Source: Sphingomonas sanxanigenens DSM 19645 = NX02
GTDB taxonomy: Bacteria; Pseudomonadota; Alphaproteobacteria; Sphingomonadales; Sphingomonadaceae
NCBI RefSeq assembly: GCF_000512205.2
Contig: NZ_CP006644.1
Span: 5,725,501 to 5,789,500 of the forward strand
Length of the DNA: 64,000 nucleotides
Reading direction: 5' to 3'
Under the pieces are notes generated by a model. It was not told where the DNA came from, searched no databases, and worked only from the letters and a program-made list of their open reading frames with translations. Made by a program: the position numbers and the translations under genes. Of the stretch, positions 12,757 to 53,240 are shown one piece after another; the stretch's first letter is position 1, and the number at the start of each line of letters is the position of its first letter.

Positions 12757-15002
12757 GTAAGGACGAAAGCCCCTCCCCTTCAGGGGAGGGGTTGGGGTGG
12801 GGAATGTCAGGTGATGGTGGTGGAAGGAAAGAGCTCGCTTCGCTCGCCCCCACCCCAACCCCTCCCCTGAAGGGGAGGGGCTTAAAAGGGGAGTTTCGCA
12901 CCCACCTCCTCTGGGCGCTGACCATCACCGTCGCGCTCTCGGCGGCGATCCTCCACTGGTTCACGATGCCGCCGCCGCTGCCGTCCTACCGCGACGTCAG
13001 GGCGGCCTGGCGCCCCAGCGAATCCTGGCTCTACGATCGCAACGGCCGGCTGATCGACGCCGAGCGCGTCGATTTCGCCGCGCGCCGCCTCGCCTGGACG
13101 CCGCTCGACGAGATCGCCCCGGTCGTACCCGAAACGCTGATCGCGTCGGAGGATCGCCGCTTCCGCAGCCATCGCGGCGTCGACTGGCTGGCCTTCGCGG
13201 GTTCGATCCGCGATCGGCTGCGCGGCCAGCGCGCCCGCGGCGCATCCACCTTGTCGATGCAGCTCGCCGCCTGGCTCTCGCCCGATATCGGCGCGCCGGG
13301 CGCGCGCGACTGGCGGGACAAGCTGCGCCAGATGCGCACGGCGCAAGCGCTGGAGGATCGGTGGAGCAAGGAAGAGATCCTCGAAGCCTATCTCAACCTC
13401 GCCGGCTTCCGTGGCGAGGCGCAGGGCGTCGGCGCCGCGGCGCTGACCCTGTTCGGCAAGACCCCCGATGCGCTCAGCCGCTCCGACGCCGCTTTGCTGA
13501 CCGCCTTGCTGCCCGATCCGCGCGCCGATCAGGCCACCGTCACCCGCCGCGCCTGCGCGATCGCGCCCGAACTGGGTTGCGAAGGGCTGCGCATCGCCGC
13601 CGGATCGATGCTGTCGCCCGCGCGGCGGCTGGTGCTCGACCCCGGGCTGGCGCCGCATCTCGCGGTGCGCCTGCTCGACACGCCCGGCCTCAAGGTCACG
13701 ACCACGCTCGATGCGGCCGTCCAGCGCGTCGCCGCCACCGCGCTGCGCCGGCAGTTGCAGGGGCTCGGCAGCGCGCGGGTGCGCGACGGCGCGGTGGTGG
13801 CGGTCGACAATGCGAGCGGCGACGTGCTCGCCTATGTCGGCGGGGTGGGGGGCGAATCGACCGCGGCAGCGGTGGATGGCGCCAACGCCTATCGCCAGGC
13901 GGGCTCGACCCTGAAGCCCTTCCTCTACGCGATGGCGATCGAGAAGGGCTATCTCACCCCTGCCTCGATCCTCGACGATTCGCCGGTGCAGCTCGACACC
14001 GCCTCGGGCCTCTATGTGCCGCAAAATTATGACCGTGCGTTCAAGGGCCCGGTCTCGGTGCGCAGCGCGCTTGCCGGCTCGCTCAACGTGCCGGCGGTGC
14101 GGACCCTGGTGCTGACCGGCGTCGAGTCGTTCCGCGACCGGCTGTGGGATTCGGGCTATCGCGGGCTCACCGAGGACGGCCAATATTACGGCTTCTCGCT
14201 GGCGCTGGGTTCGGCCGAGGTGACCCTGCTCGAACAGGCGGCGGCCTATCGCATGCTGGCGCGGGGCGGCCGCTACGCGCCGCTGCGCATCCGCGCCGGG
14301 GATCCCGAGGGCAAGGCGCGGCCGGTGACGACGCCGCAGGCGGCATGGATCGTCGCCGACATGCTCGCCGATCCCAACGCCCGCGCGCAGACCTTCGGGC
14401 TGGACAGCGCGTTGCGCCTGCCGTTCTGGGCGGCGGTGAAGACCGGCACCTCGAAGGCGATGCGCGACAATTGGTGCGTCGGCTTCTCGGATCGCTACAC
14501 CGTCGCGGTCTGGATCGGCAATCTGGAGGGCGATCCGATGCGCGCGGTCTCGGGCACCAGCGGCGCCGCGCCGGTATGGCGCGATGTGATGCGCGCGCTC
14601 CACGCCGCCCGCCCCTCGCGCGCGCCGAAGATGCCCGGCGGCGTCGAGGCGCGCGCGGTCCGCTTCGCCGACGGCATCGAGCCGCCGCGCCGCGACTATT
14701 TCCTCGCCGGCACCGGCCAGAGCGTCCAGGCGGTGGCGCCGCCCGAGGCGCGGCGGCCGCGCATCGTCAATCCCGCGGCCGGCGCGGTCTATGCGCTCGA
14801 TCCCGACATCCCGGTCGATCGCCAGCGCATCGCGATCCGCGTCACCGGCCTCGCCACAGGGCACCGACTGATGCTCGACAGGCAGGATGTCGGCCCGGCG
14901 AGCGGCGTGCCGCAGATCCTGGCGGGGCCCGGCCTGCATCGGGTGCGGCTGGTGGATCTGGATGGCAAGGTGGTGGACCAGGTGCTGTTCACGATGCGGT
15001 GA
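12753..15002 (+). CDS. pbpC: Penicillin-binding protein 1C
   Basis: A bifunctional peptidoglycan glycosyltransferase/transpeptidase-like protein of 749 residues when read from GTG 12753, which overlaps the macroglobulin stop. Only one TM helix is visible (HLLWALTITVALSAAILHWF), followed by a GT51 domain with Glu133 (EDRRFRSH). The transpeptidase domain has Ser385-x-x-Lys (GSTLKPF), SLN near 443 and KTG 563-565, and a C-terminal BiPBP_C domain follows. All key residues are present. About 40 N-terminal residues before the TM are encoded by a palindromic repeat, so the true start could also be ATG 12804. Confidence 0.92.
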   Translation: MSKDESPSPSGEGLGWGMSGDGGGRKELASLAPTPTPPLKGRGLKGEFRTHLLWALTITVALSAAILHWFTMPPPLPSYRDVRAAWRPSESWLYDRNGRLIDAERVDFAARRLAWTPLDEIAPVVPETLIASEDRRFRSHRGVDWLAFAGSIRDRLRGQRARGASTLSMQLAAWLSPDIGAPGARDWRDKLRQMRTAQALEDRWSKEEILEAYLNLAGFRGEAQGVGAAALTLFGKTPDALSRSDAALLTALLPDPRADQATVTRRACAIAPELGCEGLRIAAGSMLSPARRLVLDPGLAPHLAVRLLDTPGLKVTTTLDAAVQRVAATALRRQLQGLGSARVRDGAVVAVDNASGDVLAYVGGVGGESTAAAVDGANAYRQAGSTLKPFLYAMAIEKGYLTPASILDDSPVQLDTASGLYVPQNYDRAFKGPVSVRSALAGSLNVPAVRTLVLTGVESFRDRLWDSGYRGLTEDGQYYGFSLALGSAEVTLLEQAAAYRMLARGGRYAPLRIRAGDPEGKARPVTTPQAAWIVADMLADPNARAQTFGLDSALRLPFWAAVKTGTSKAMRDNWCVGFSDRYTVAVWIGNLEGDPMRAVSGTSGAAPVWRDVMRALHAARPSRAPKMPGGVEARAVRFADGIEPPRRDYFLAGTGQSVQAVAPPEARRPRIVNPAAGAVYALDPDIPVDRQRIAIRVTGLATGHRLMLDRQDVGPASGVPQILAGPGLHRVRLVDLDGKVVDQVLFTMR
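12767..12883. repeat. 117-bp palindromic element inside the 5' end of pbpC
   Basis: Two perfect 36-bp inverted arms (12767-12802 and 12848-12883) flank a 45-bp centre. Each arm is itself built around a palindrome (CCCCTCCCC TTCA GGGGAGGGG). Length and centre match the element at 946-1062. It carries no stop codon in the pbpC frame and is translated as SPSPSGEGLGWG (left arm) and APTPTPPLKGRG (right arm). It sits just after the coupled GTG start, so its hairpins lie in the translation-initiation zone of pbpC. Confidence 0.9.
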
Positions 15003-32360: not shown

Positions 32361-32364
<4 letters not shown>

Positions 32365-32777
32365 ATCTCCCTCTCCCCTCGGGGGAGAGGGAGGGGAGCC
32401 GGGTGGGAGGGTGAGGGCACGAGCGCCGAACGTATCACCGAGGTCACGCCCTCCAGATTGTCCATCACATCCGCATTCGTAAAGCGCAGCACCCGATATC
32501 CTTCACTCGCGAGATAAGCCGTTCGGCGCGCATCGCGGGCAACCGCCTGCTCACCAGCATGGGTGTCCCCGTCGACTTCCACCACCAGCCTCGCCGCCTG
32601 GCAGACGAAATCGCCGAAATATGGGCCCAAGCGCTGCTGACGGCGGAATTTCGCGCCGTCAAGTGCACTGCGGCGCAGGGCAGACCACAGGCGTTGCTCC
32701 GCCGGGGTCGCATCGCGGCGGAGCTTGCGGGCGCGGTCGATGGAGCCGTCTCGGATGTCGAAGCGTGATCCGGACAC
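32361..32777 (-). CDS. DUF559 endonuclease-like protein, copy 1
   Basis: A 138-residue single-domain protein of the DUF559 family (PF04480-type, related to the Vsr/PD-(D/E)XK nuclease fold). [17 protein letters not shown] is the N-terminal helix, [13 protein letters not shown] carries the acidic core, and [19 protein letters not shown] the final strand and helix. The last residues ([12 protein letters not shown]) are encoded by a palindromic repeat. The gene lies between two nested inverted-repeat pairs and its TGA overlaps the aroC ATG. Nuclease activity has not been shown for most members; a role in moving or maintaining the repeat is inferred. Confidence 0.88.
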
Positions 32778-32921
32778 TGGCCCTCACCCTCCCATCGCTG
32801 CGCGACGGGCCCCTCCAGTTTCGCTCGCATAGCGGGCCGATTGTGCCCCCGGCACAATCTGTGGAATGCCGGGGGCATTCCACACCCGCTCTGCGACCGA
32901 AACTCCCCCGAGGGGAGAGGG
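32369..32921. mobile_element. Composite palindromic element carrying DUF559 copy 1
   Basis: The outer perfect 19-bp inverted repeats are 32369-32387 and 32903-32921, each within a hairpin whose stem has CCCTCTCCCC/GGGGAGAGGG. The inner perfect 15-bp inverted repeats are 32404-32418 (TGGGAGGGTGAGGGC) and 32780-32794. The DUF559 start lies just inside the inner right repeat, and its 3' end runs through both left repeats. The right flank holds extra hairpins at 32839-32882. No target-site duplication was identified by eye. It interrupts the fabI-aroC pair. Confidence 0.75.
32839..32882. repeat. Twin hairpins with complementary loops
   Basis: Two adjacent perfect 9-bp stems: GATTGTGCC-CCC-GGCACAATC (32839-32859) and TGGAATGCC-GGG-GGCATTCCA (32862-32882). 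The CCC and GGG loops are complementary and could pair with each other. They are enclosed by further arms (AGTTTCG/CGAAACT; GCGGG/CCCGC). They lie between fabI and the DUF559 start. Confidence 0.8.
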
Positions 32922-44565: not shown

Positions 44566-45675
44566 CTAGACCGCCACCACCGCTCCGCGCTCGAACCGGT
44601 GCGTGCAGCCCAGTGCCGCGGCATCGTCATCTCCGTCGAGCGCCGCCACCGTCGCCCAGCCGTCCGCGCGCAGCCCCTCGACCGCGCCGGCATCCGCATC
44701 GAGCGGAACGAAGATGCGCTGGCGCGGCTTGCCGCCGAGGCCGGCGTCGATCAGGGGGTCGGGATAGAGCGAGAAGCCGAGCGCGGGTTCCTCGCGCCCG
44801 TCCGGATGGAGCACGGTATAGCTGCCGCCGCGGCCGATCTCGCCCGAGACGCCCTCGGCGAACAGCGAGAAGCCGAACCAGCTCTGATATTCGAAGCCGT
44901 GGCGCTCGGTGGGGTCGAGCGTCAGCGCCGCCTTGCCCGCCACCGCGGTCGTGATCGCCTCGATCCCGGCGATGCGCGAGGCGAGCACGCCGCCCGCGTC
45001 GATCGCGCGCAGCCGGTCGAGCGCCTGCGGGAAGGGGCCGGCGGCGTCGATCAGCGGCAAATAGCGGTCGAAGCCGGCGGCGGCGAGGCCGCCGGCATCC
45101 TTGGCGTCGAGCAGCGCGCGGGCCCGGTCGATCCTGCCCGCCTCGATCGGGAAGGGGCCGGCAGCAAGCGTATCGACGAGATCGGGCAGGGTGATGTCGA
45201 GGGTGATGCCGGTAACGCCGGCGCGCTCCAGCGCGGTCAGCGCGAGGCTGACGATTTCGCGCGCGGCGGCGATGTTGTCGGTGCCGACGATCTCGGCGCC
45301 CACCTGCATCATCTCGCGCTCGGGGCGGAGCTGCGTCGCCTTGAGCTTGAGCACCGGGCCGCCATAGGCCAGCCGCAGCGGCCGCGCGCGGTGCGCCATG
45401 CGGGTGACGGCGATGCGCCCGACCTGCGCGGTGATGTCCGGCCGCAGCGCCAATGTACGTTGCGAGACCGGATCGATCACGCGCAGCAGATCCTGCGGGC
45501 GCGAGGATTTGAGGCGGCCGACCAGCGTGTCCTCGAACTCCGCCAGCGGCGGCGAGACGCGCTCATAGCCCCACGCCTGCGCGACATCGAGCGCGCGCCA
45601 GACGAGCCGGGCGAGCGCGTCGGCGTGCGGGGGCAGGCGATCGCGCAGGCCTTCGGGAAGGAGGCCCACGCTCAT
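44566..45675 (-). CDS. hisZ: ATP phosphoribosyltransferase regulatory subunit
   Basis: HisZ is a catalytically dead histidyl-tRNA-synthetase paralogue that forms the ATP-PRT complex with short-form HisG (first step of histidine synthesis). It has 369 residues, with GLRDRLPPHADALARLVWRAL at the start, RPDITAQVGRIAVTRMA and FSLYPDPLIDA. hisG is not in this window. ATG 45675 overlaps the DUF559 stop (ATGA); its Shine-Dalgarno AGGGAG, 5 bp upstream, belongs to the palindrome at 45683-45705. Confidence 0.95.
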   Translation of the reverse strand: MSVGLLPEGLRDRLPPHADALARLVWRALDVAQAWGYERVSPPLAEFEDTLVGRLKSSRPQDLLRVIDPVSQRTLALRPDITAQVGRIAVTRMAHRARPLRLAYGGPVLKLKATQLRPEREMMQVGAEIVGTDNIAAAREIVSLALTALERAGVTGITLDITLPDLVDTLAAGPFPIEAGRIDRARALLDAKDAGGLAAAGFDRYLPLIDAAGPFPQALDRLRAIDAGGVLASRIAGIEAITTAVAGKAALTLDPTERHGFEYQSWFGFSLFAEGVSGEIGRGGSYTVLHPDGREEPALGFSLYPDPLIDAGLGGKPRQRIFVPLDADAGAVEGLRADGWATVAALDGDDDAAALGCTHRFERGAVVAV

Positions 45676-46070
45676 TTCTGCTCCCTCTCCCCTATGGGGA
45701 GAGGGCCGGGGAGAGGGGCAGTTTCCAGGCCCAGCGCGATCTCGATGACCTGCGCCACGCCGTCGATATTCCCCATCACATCCGCATTGGTGAGCCTGAT
45801 CACCCGATACCCCGCTTCTTCGATCCTGCGCGTCCGTGCGGCGTCATAGTCGATCTGGCGACTATGTGTATCCCCATCGATCTCGATCGCGATCTTGCGC
45901 ATTCGCGCAGCGAAGTCGGCGATGAAGGAGCCGATGACGACCTGTCGCGAAAATTTAACACCGGCAAAACGATGCCCGCGAAGCAGAAGCCAGAGCTTCT
46001 GTTCCGCGGGCGTCTGGGTGGTGCGCATGGTTTTGGCATGCGCCAGCAGGCGTTCGTTTCGCTTCGGCAC
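45672..46070 (-). CDS. DUF559 endonuclease-like protein, copy 2
   Basis: A 132-residue paralogue of the protein at 32361-32777. Shared features are TPAEQKLW, IAIEIDGDTHSRQ, and GYRVIRLTNADVMGNIDGV. It is read from GTG 46070, which lies inside the inner inverted repeat; ATG 46028 (118 residues) is the alternative but removes the N-terminal helix. The C-terminus APLPGPLPIGEREQK is encoded by the left palindrome. Its TGA overlaps the hisZ ATG, exactly as copy 1 overlaps aroC. It sits between serA and hisZ. Confidence 0.87.
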   Translation of the reverse strand: MPKRNERLLAHAKTMRTTQTPAEQKLWLLLRGHRFAGVKFSRQVVIGSFIADFAARMRKIAIEIDGDTHSRQIDYDAARTRRIEEAGYRVIRLTNADVMGNIDGVAQVIEIALGLETAPLPGPLPIGEREQK

Positions 46071-46128
46071 TGCCCCTCTCCCTGCTGGCGCTGCGCGCCA
46101 GCTTTCCCTCTCCCCGGAGGGGAGAGGG
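45683..46128. mobile_element. Composite palindromic element carrying DUF559 copy 2
   Basis: The outer hairpins at 45683-45705 and 46106-46128 share the identical 10-bp stem CCCTCTCCCC/GGGGAGAGGG with different 3-bp loops (TAT, GGA). The inner perfect 14-bp inverted repeats are 45709-45722 (GGGAGAGGGGCAGT) and 46069-46082. Between the right inner and outer repeats is an extra hairpin GCTGGCGC-TGC-GCGCCAGC (46084-46102). The architecture is the same as 32369-32921 but the inner repeats differ in sequence. Confidence 0.75.
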
Positions 46129-46141
46129 AAGCAAGGCAGTA

Positions 46142-47719
46142 TCAGAACCGCAGCGCCTTGGCGCGCTTCACGCCGGGGAGGTTGCACACGCTCCACAGCA
46201 ACGGTTCCGGCACCGGGGTGTCGACCGACAGCAGCAGCGCCGCTTCGCCGCGGGTCGAGCGGCGGCCGAGGTGGAAGGTGCCGATGTTGACGTCGGCCTC
46301 GCCCAGCGCGCTGCCGATGCGGCCGATGAAGCCCGGCGCGTCCTCGTTGACGATGAACAGCATATAGCCGTCGAGATCGGCCTCCATGCGGATGCCGTGC
46401 AGCTCGACGAGGCGCGGCGCGGCATCGCCGAACAGGGTGCCGGCCACCGAGCGCTCGCCCTCGGCGGTGGTCACCGTCACGCGCACCAGCGTGTGATAGT
46501 CCCCCTCGCGGTCGTGGCGCACTTCGCGCACGTCCAGCCCGCGCTCCTTGGCGAGGTAGGGCGCGTTCACCATGTTCACGGTGTCCGAATAGACGCGCAT
46601 CAGCCCCGCCAGCACCGCACCGGTGATCGGCTTGGCGTTGAGGTCGGCGGCGGCACCTTCCAGCTCCACCGCGATGCCTTGGATGGGGTCGCTCTCGAGC
46701 TGGCCGACGAGCGCGCCGAGCTTTTCGGCGAGGCCGAGATAGGGCTTGATCTTCGGCGCTTCCTCGGCGCTCAGCGACGGGATGTTGAGCGCGTTGGTGA
46801 CGCCGCCATTGACCAGATAATCGGCCATCTGCTCGGCGACCTGCAGCGCGACATTGACCTGCGCCTCGCTGGTCGACGCGCCGAGGTGCGGCGTGGAGAT
46901 GAAGTTGGGGGTGCCGAACAGCGGGCTCGCCTTGGCCGGCTCCTCGACGAACACGTCGAGCGCGGCACCGGCGACATGGCCGCTGTCGAGCGCCGCCTTC
47001 AGCGCCACTTCGTCGATCAGGCCGCCGCGCGCGCAGTTGATGATGCGCACGCCCGGCTTGCACTTGGCGATATTCTCGGCCGACAGGATGTTGCGGGTGC
47101 TGTCGGTCAGCGGCGTGTGCAGCGTGATGAAGTCCGCCTTGGCGAGCAGCTCTTCGAGCGTCGCCTTCTCCACACCCAGTTCGACCGCGCGCTCGGGGGT
47201 GAGGAACGGATCGTAGGCGACCACTTTCATCTTCAGGCCGAGCGCGCGATCCGCGACGATCGAGCCGATGTTGCCCGCGCCGATCAGGCCCAGCGTCTTG
47301 TTGGTCAGCTCCACGCCCATGAAGCGGTTCTTCTCCCACTTGCCGGCCTGGGTGGAGGCATCGGCTTCGGGGATCTGGCGGGCGAGCGCGAACATCAAGG
47401 CGATCGCATGTTCGGCGGTGGTGATCGAGTTGCCGAACGGCGTGTTCATCACGACCACGCCCTTCGCCGAGGCGGCGGGAATGTCGACATTGTCGACGCC
47501 GATGCCCGCGCGGCCGACGACCTTGAGGTTCGGCGCGGCGGCGAGCACGTCGGCGGTCACCTTGGTCGCCGAACGGATCGCGAGGCCGTCATACTGGCCG
47601 ATGATCGCGATGAGGCCGGCCTTGTCGAGACCGGTGATCTCGTCGACTTCGCAGCCGCGCTCGCGGAAGATGCGGGCGGCCTGGGGGTCCATCTTGTCGG
47701 AAATCAGTACCTTGGGCAT
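46142..47719 (-). CDS. serA: D-3-phosphoglycerate dehydrogenase
   Basis: SerA oxidises 3-phosphoglycerate in the first committed step of serine synthesis. The 525-residue long form has a Rossmann NAD domain (GLIGAGNIGSIVADRA near 145), the catalytic Arg in NCARGGLIDE, and the His in TPHLGASTSEAQ. An intervening ASB domain and a C-terminal ACT domain (about 453-525) suggest serine feedback. A 118-bp palindromic element separates it from serC upstream. Confidence 0.97.
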   Translation of the reverse strand: MPKVLISDKMDPQAARIFRERGCEVDEITGLDKAGLIAIIGQYDGLAIRSATKVTADVLAAAPNLKVVGRAGIGVDNVDIPAASAKGVVVMNTPFGNSITTAEHAIALMFALARQIPEADASTQAGKWEKNRFMGVELTNKTLGLIGAGNIGSIVADRALGLKMKVVAYDPFLTPERAVELGVEKATLEELLAKADFITLHTPLTDSTRNILSAENIAKCKPGVRIINCARGGLIDEVALKAALDSGHVAGAALDVFVEEPAKASPLFGTPNFISTPHLGASTSEAQVNVALQVAEQMADYLVNGGVTNALNIPSLSAEEAPKIKPYLGLAEKLGALVGQLESDPIQGIAVELEGAAADLNAKPITGAVLAGLMRVYSDTVNMVNAPYLAKERGLDVREVRHDREGDYHTLVRVTVTTAEGERSVAGTLFGDAAPRLVELHGIRMEADLDGYMLFIVNEDAPGFIGRIGSALGEADVNIGTFHLGRRSTRGEAALLLSVDTPVPEPLLWSVCNLPGVKRAKALRF

Positions 47720-47733
47720 GGATTTTTCCTAAG

Positions 47734-47851
47734 CTCCCTCTCCCCTATGGGGAGAGGGTTGGGGAGAGGGAGAGTCCGGGCGAGGCGCCGATGATCGGGG
47801 TGGGCGGATACTGCCCCTCTCCCCAACCCTCTCCCCAGAGGGGAGAGGGAG
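47734..47851. repeat. 118-bp palindromic element, compact copy between serC and serA
   Basis: The 37-bp inverted arms (47734-47770 and 47815-47851) differ at one base; the centre is 44 bp. The outer part of the left arm is identical over 25 bp to the left end of the DUF559-carrying element at 45683, tying the compact and nuclease-bearing forms together. Each arm is a CCCTCTCCCC/GGGGAGAGGG hairpin plus a GGGGAGAGGG half-site. It lies in the serC-serA spacer, 15 bp before the serA ATG. Confidence 0.9.
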
Positions 47852-53036: not shown

Positions 53037-53171
53037 AGTCCCCTCCAGCACAGTCATAGAAATGTTATAACGTCACGTCACCCGCGATCGGTCAAGCGGC
53101 GTATGCATCCGATCCGGTGCGAACCGGATAAGCCATCAAGCCAAGTATTGCATCGATCGTGCGCCTATGTC

Positions 53172-53227
53172 CGCATGGGCGCATGGGCGCATGGGCGCAT
53201 GGGCGCATGGGCGCATGGGCGCATGGG
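53172..53227 (+). repeat. 8-bp tandem repeat (CGCATGGG x7)
   Basis: Seven perfect copies of CGCATGGG are followed by one imperfect copy (CGCACGGA). The unit is not a multiple of three, so each copy gained or lost shifts the reading frame; all frames read as Met/Ala/Trp/His/Gly/Arg heptads without stops. It lies directly before a decayed esterase tail. The rest of the 460-bp gap between 53037 and 53496 shows no gene. Confidence 0.95.
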
Positions 53228-53240
53228 CGCACGGACGGGG

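Follow-up and report, generated by a model that had tools for sequence, protein, structure and literature searches.

Intrastrand triplex motifs were described by Holder et al. 2015 (PMC4666352) as a hairpin followed by a mirror third strand, and 23 of them are listed in E. coli K-12. In that study no transposase or integrase near the motifs was reported, DUF559 was not named, and stable triplex in vitro was shown for the E. coli motifs (PMC4666352). REP/REPIN families linked to RAYT transposases are also known (PMC3116915, PMC8266576). A search of the openly accessible journal literature revealed no tie between DUF559 and palindromes, and the same scope gave nothing relevant on COG2852/PF04480 or on ycjD with triplex. 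DUF559 is listed in Pfam as a domain of unknown function.

The locus analysed here lies between serA and hisZ in the window, that is, the whole stretch of 64,000 nucleotides that was analysed, and its features are summarized in Table 1. Inverted palindromes CCCTCTCCCCnnnGGGGAGAGGG with inward polypurine tails bracket a DUF559 gene, the GTG start of which is at the edge of the 5' inner repeat. An earlier note on this DNA had described 10-bp outer stems and a perfect 14-bp inner repeat around the nuclease gene before hisZ, an ATGA shared by the DUF559 TGA and the hisZ ATG, and a protein C-terminus encoded by the palindrome; all three were found as described, the C-terminus APLPGPLPIGEREQK being read through the 3' repeat. 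The inner repeats are not an independent feature, since each is a mirror copy of the stem's purine arm. Small hairpins comparable to the one on the serA side were also found in gene-less copies. The earlier note had further assigned the same architecture to the copy before aroC, and the general plan does hold there, but that copy has one intact outer palindrome, the opposite one being truncated (about 32903-32921), and an inner repeat of 15 bp (32404-32418 / 32780-32794).

Table 1. Positions of the DUF559 genes, their repeats and the neighbouring genes in the window
Feature	Position	Strand	Remarks
DUF559 (PF04480) Vsr/homing-endonuclease-like nuclease gene	45672..46070	(-)	132 aa; GTG start at 46070-46068
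3' outer palindrome CCCTCTCCCCTATGGGGAGAGGG	45683..45705		10-bp perfect stem; overlaps 3' end of DUF559 gene
3' inner polypurine tail GGGAGAGGGGCAGT	45709..45722		mirror 'third strand' of stem; points into DUF559 gene
5' inner tail ACTGCCCCTCTCCC	46069..46082		perfect 14-bp inverted copy of 45709-45722; edge of start codon inside
Small GC hairpin, serA side	46083..46105 (about)		between inner and outer repeat
5' outer palindrome CCCTCTCCCCGGAGGGGAGAGGG	46106..46128		10-bp perfect stem
ATGA overlap	45672..45675	(-)	nuclease stop TGA 45674-45672 over hisZ ATG 45675-45673
hisZ, downstream host gene	44566..45675	(-)	
serA, upstream host gene	46142..47719	(-)	
Gene-less copy, 114 bp, adjoins serA	47736..47849		same outer palindromes, similar inner tails
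Second DUF559 gene, before aroC	32361..32777	(-)	same layout
aroC-copy palindrome CCCTCTCCCCTCGGGGGAGAGGG	32369..32391		sole intact outer palindrome of aroC copy

In the window the palindrome was counted 8 times, where 0.01 occurrences were expected, and the 6.58-Mb host genome has about 81, compared to 0 for the reversed control pattern; the layout is thus excluded as a product of chance. Many of the genomic sites are inverted pairs 90-170 bp apart without a gene, as in the copy adjoining serA, and such gene-less pairs are far more numerous in the host genome than gene-bearing ones. An alignment of 14 of them showed the inner GGGAGAGGGGCAGT in several as well, and did not define the extended termini of the gene-less copies. 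A third full DUF559 gene lies between sufB and sufC (L003), with a different flanking palindrome, CCCCTCCCCTTCAGGGGAGGGG. The palindrome around this gene belongs to a second repeat family with a CCCCTCCCCTGAAGGGGAGGGG core, which was also observed at 1013-1067 and 12832-12886 of the window, and a tandem 8-bp repeat (TGGGCGCA-like) in seven registers was seen at 53152-53237. The Rfam search gave sub-threshold hairpin matches only, and the genus search for congeners of the host returned the host genome alone.

The occurrence of such repeats at other DUF559 genes was analysed in loci selected independently of the repeats, on the similarity of the protein. Scanning genome contigs of the Sphingomonadales at the protein level gave 79 DUF559 loci, of which 76 were testable. 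A pyrimidine/purine hairpin within 200 bp was found on both sides of 55 of these 76 genes compared to 2 of 4,599 control windows from the same loci, and the hairpin density near the DUF559 gene was about 21 times higher. With the loci from whole genomes of the class and the phylum added, 203 DUF559 genes from Pseudomonadota were testable under a strict exact-stem rule; 152 had a palindrome upstream, 141 downstream and 116 on both sides. The palindrome sequence varied widely among the loci (CCCTCTCCC, CCCTCCCCC, CCTTCCCCC, CCCCTCCC and others). The stem arms of the two ends agreed in 87% of the loci outside the Sphingomonadales scan compared to 35% with ends swapped between loci, and the loops were exact reverse complements in 36% of loci compared to 2% in permuted pairs. 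Of 293 palindromes, 227 had the mirror copy of the stem arm, i.e. the third strand, on the gene side and 44 had it on the far side (sign test 6e-36), whereas about 12 gene-side copies were expected from shuffled flanks. The order of a pyrimidine/purine hairpin followed by a mirror-repeat third strand is therefore seen at the DUF559 ends. As judged from their sequence, the ends flanking DUF559 genes are inverted motifs of the intrastrand-triplex type, and those of one locus form a matched pair pointing inward. That a GC-rich palindrome and a small gene coincide by accident, an explanation which has nothing in its favour beyond the small sample of the window, is refuted by the control windows and by the cross-genome test given below, and was accorded practically no weight.

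The DUF559 protein of the window matched PF04480 with an E value of 3e-32 and 111 bits, compared to a curated cut-off of 20.6. Foldseek placed its AlphaFold2 model (pLDDT 82) nearest to the putative endonuclease 3hrl and the homing endonuclease I-Bth0305I (3r3p, E 4e-5), followed by Vsr (1cw0, E 3e-3). The sequence profile matched 3r3p at 5e-4, in agreement with the fold result, and the predicted fold is that of Vsr-like and homing endonucleases. The invariant residues include E23, E63, D65, G66, D67 and H69 (numbering of the window protein). On the enzyme tree the palindrome type changed 30 times compared to at least 45 times in shuffles. Near enzyme relatives from other host families agreed in palindrome type in 74% of cases, compared to a random value of 34%, and host ancestry is only partly controlled in this comparison.

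The relation between palindrome abundance and the enzyme was analysed in 289 alphaproteobacterial genomes using a single palindrome pattern, and genomes with ten or more palindromes were taken as palindrome-rich. A full DUF559 gene was present in 35 of the 43 palindrome-rich genomes compared to 33 of the 246 others (OR 28, p 9e-19); with one genome per family the corresponding counts were 18/20 and 17/138 (OR 64). The partial rank correlation of palindrome count with DUF559, given genome size, was 0.62. The other Pseudomonadota (213 genomes) gave the same picture, with DUF559 in 18/24 palindrome-rich genomes compared to 13/189 (OR 41, p 3e-13). Since a single pattern misses other palindrome types, DUF559 genomes with few matches are to be expected. 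Palindrome-rich genomes without a DUF559 match (8 of the 43 alphaproteobacterial and 6 of the 24 other ones) count against a mobile unit; some of these absences are probably false negatives, because the control list of the family search missed E. coli although K-12 carries ycjD. Across the genomes compared, and as far as pattern counts can tell, high palindrome numbers are seen mainly in the presence of DUF559.

True Vsr (PF03852) and RAYT were considered as the linked enzyme and both were rejected. For true Vsr, which was not found in the host genome, the odds ratio with palindrome abundance was 2.8, and in genomes of 3 Mb or more it was 1.6 and not significant, while DUF559 keeps an odds ratio of 17.6 there. 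For Y1_Tnp, the RAYT type, no link to palindrome abundance was seen in the 289 alphaproteobacterial genomes (OR 1.2, partial correlation -0.01), and the sole Y1_Tnp gene of the host genome has no flanking palindrome of this kind. That gene (L020, G000:C1 near 104431) is bracketed by direct TATTGTGTCCCCGAAAT-like repeats. These data bear on the explanation that a RAYT or another transposase moves both the gene-bearing and the gene-less units in trans, with DUF559 as cargo kept for a host or defence role. The existence of RAYT-linked REP/REPIN families and the presence of one Y1_Tnp gene in the host speak for this explanation, but the gene is unflanked, its presence across genomes is uncorrelated with the palindrome and no other gene was seen between the ends; a separate mover of this kind was considered improbable.

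The 199 DUF559 loci with both flanks fell into 114 gene contexts. One unit (L164, about positions 1152-1607; genus of G012) was compared with 61 genomes. The matches of its upstream flank end at or before 1149, and those of the downstream flank start near 1630. The unit itself has matches at other places, as one block. Ten homologous units in eight genomes of the genus, including L164 and L181 of G012, align palindrome to palindrome at 65-74% to L164, with the breakpoints at the palindromes and a DUF559 ORF in 10/10. Their 1-kb flanks gave no tblastx match except short DNA repeats of 34-56 bp, and the orthologous-locus positive control does match. Several genomes of the genus also contain units of 102-159 bp that lack the gene but have this palindrome and the GGGGGTGGGT / ACCCACCCCC tails of the gene-bearing ones. 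The alignments show discrete DUF559 units with constant ends at non-homologous sites, as in transposable elements and MITEs, along with gene-less relatives. Homology among the ten covers the whole unit, ends included, so that the ends and the gene would travel together. No target-site duplication was visible by eye in the ten units, and no base-resolution empty site was found for a DUF559-bearing unit, the empty sites in E. coli concerning gene-less units; both negative results count against a mobile unit. CTAG or CTAA was observed directly before the left palindrome in five of the ten (L164, L181, L359, L360, L361). Two further DUF559 units of one genome (L363 and L364, G694) have about 45 bp of immediate flank in common, which suggests either longer true ends or a common target.

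In E. coli K-12 the DUF559 gene ycjD (1351407-1351760) has sapF and fabI as its neighbours. At a distance of 168 bp downstream of ycjD is the triplex motif that Holder et al. list as no. 9 (1351204-1351239), and the ycjD stop is overlapped by a degenerate motif. A clean empty site at ycjD was rejected, as E. coli strains without the gene hold another operon there; at two such fabI-sapF loci (L291 and L292) a TetR/efflux operon was seen instead. Three gene-less E. coli motif pairs were polymorphic for presence and absence between strains with nearly identical flanks, the ends and the direction of the change being ambiguous. At fepB-entC in XH988, 186 bp are missing and the flanks are 99.4% identical; a 3-bp TAA repeat at one gene-less site is ambiguous as a target-site duplication.

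The palindrome pairs might instead be an older family with its own mover, in which a free-standing, homing-endonuclease-like DUF559 protein cuts the middle of a pair and its gene is copied in by repair. The position of I-Bth0305I among the closest solved relatives, the great excess of gene-less over gene-bearing pairs and the tracking of the enzyme by repeat type would all agree with a passenger of this homing type. Against it stand the abundance of the palindromes mainly where DUF559 is present, the missing association with RAYT and the homology of ten units over their full length, ends included, and it was judged unlikely.

The earlier note had argued from two unrelated loci for a mechanistic link, perhaps insertion at or choice of start codons. 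Its first part, a nuclease-repeat association beyond chance, is upheld by the 116 of 203 DUF559 genes flanked on both sides, the control windows, the gene-side third strand, the 114 gene contexts and the cross-genome correlation. The enrichment it had proposed to look for was also observed: an NTGA overlap of the DUF559 stop with the next long ORF occurred in 73/201 cases compared to 9.2% of control ORFs (OR 5.6), and the downstream palindrome overlapped the DUF559 CDS in 108/141. The start-codon mechanism itself was not supported. Outside the closely related Sphingomonadales set the overlap was found in 25/124 (20%). A DUF559 gene precedes hisZ in six of 30 hisZ loci and is absent from the others; in relatives lacking it the hisZ start is unchanged (ATGACC in L229, ATGAGC in L236), and serA and hisZ overlap directly in L235. 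The ATGA that provides the DUF559 stop was therefore already there in the next gene. Start-codon targeting was rejected though the overlap is enriched, since the next gene's own ATGA explains it; the start-codon idea is mostly a by-product, and the overlap is best read as an insert tolerated between ORFs, probably not a targeting rule. The C-terminal tail is read in different frames among copies (PLPxPLPxGERE, PLSQPSPQRGEGF, PSPQPSPQGGRE), in agreement with a repeat that is read through.

Nor is the copy between serA and hisZ a recent insertion, since the same context recurs in 49/199 loci compared and, being common to many Sphingomonadales, is old. The dN/dS of the serA-hisZ copies is about 0.25 with dS near saturation, and by these estimates the copy is under purifying selection and vertically inherited. 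Such a long-lived single-copy gene looks domesticated, which counts against a mobile unit. This conservation, as well as Caulobacter VsrA, a DUF559 protein linked to DNA damage in a methyltransferase mutant (PMC12907096), would be in accordance with a Vsr-like repair or stress nuclease gene favoured next to terminator- or attenuator-like hairpins in operons, the repeats being regulatory and not mobile. Regulatory hairpins would not be expected to form matched inverted ends that point inward, to lie in discrete units with unrelated flanks or to have gene-less copies throughout the genome, and the control windows of the same loci were without such palindromes; a purely host function was thus regarded as very unlikely.

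The feature is probably a mobile composite unit, in which a DUF559 nuclease gene lies between inverted triplex-type palindromes acting as its ends. The nuclease would act on these ends and drive the movement. It may recognise the folded ends, for example when single-stranded during replication, and may nick the hairpin feet and so start excision or copying. The gene-less blocks would be non-autonomous derivatives that are mobilised in trans, in the way proposed for REPINs and RAYTs. The unit would couple to the next gene via that gene's ATGA. This coupling, together with read-through of the ends, may be what makes placement just before or after housekeeping ORFs tolerable. To our knowledge no transposition chemistry has been described for a 132-aa nuclease alone, which counts against the mobile unit. 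A broader proposal would make DUF559 proteins the enzymes dedicated to the mobility of a widespread, so far unrecognised class of elements with inverted triplex-motif ends, and the triplex repeats of E. coli and many other Pseudomonadota non-autonomous derivatives of that class, with transposition carried out by a Vsr-type nuclease on folded DNA; it is put forward tentatively, with our opinion close to balance and inclined slightly to doubt. DUF559 is the best candidate so far for the spreader of a widespread bacterial hairpin-repeat family without a known mover. A nuclease that lies between the repeats, predicts their abundance across the phylum and appears to move with them is a candidate answer to what moves the motifs of Holder et al., and the question can be approached in E. 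coli K-12 since it carries ycjD. If true, this would give DUF559 a role and provide a second, enzymatically unrelated example of the REPIN/RAYT arrangement.

Among the known systems, I-Bth0305I and Vsr have the same fold as that predicted for the DUF559 protein, but the DUF559 gene is placed between palindromes instead of inside an intron or intein. The MITEs and RAYT-associated TIRs ('TIRtrons', PMC3733652) likewise have terminal inverted repeats and short gene-less relatives; they differ in that no target-site duplication was established here and the enzyme is neither a DDE nor a Y1 transposase. With the intrastrand triplex motifs (TM, TMECO; PMC4666352) the ends have in common the sequence type, e.g. 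CCCTCGCCCCTTTGGGGAGAGGGTTAGGGTGAGGGG, and the inverted pairs, the difference being the nuclease gene between the motifs. The REP/REPIN and RAYT (TnpA-REP) system is similar in having short palindromes in inverted pairs at dozens to hundreds per genome, and inverted pairs in many copies per genome were found here as well; it also has a low-copy enzyme gene bracketed by the same repeats and gene-less pairs presumed to be moved in trans. In contrast, DUF559 is Vsr-like and unrelated to the Y1 HuH transposases, the stems of its units are pyrimidine/purine with a mirror third strand, and palindrome abundance here tracks DUF559 and not Y1_Tnp. A GTAG/CGTC tag at the stem foot was not seen by eye beside the gene-less host copies or the ten homologous units. 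As both the enzyme and the tag differ, the unit is not a member of REPIN/RAYT, though by analogy it appears to work like one. The best reading is a REPIN/RAYT-like mobile unit, with a putative homing-endonuclease-like enzyme in the place of RAYT.
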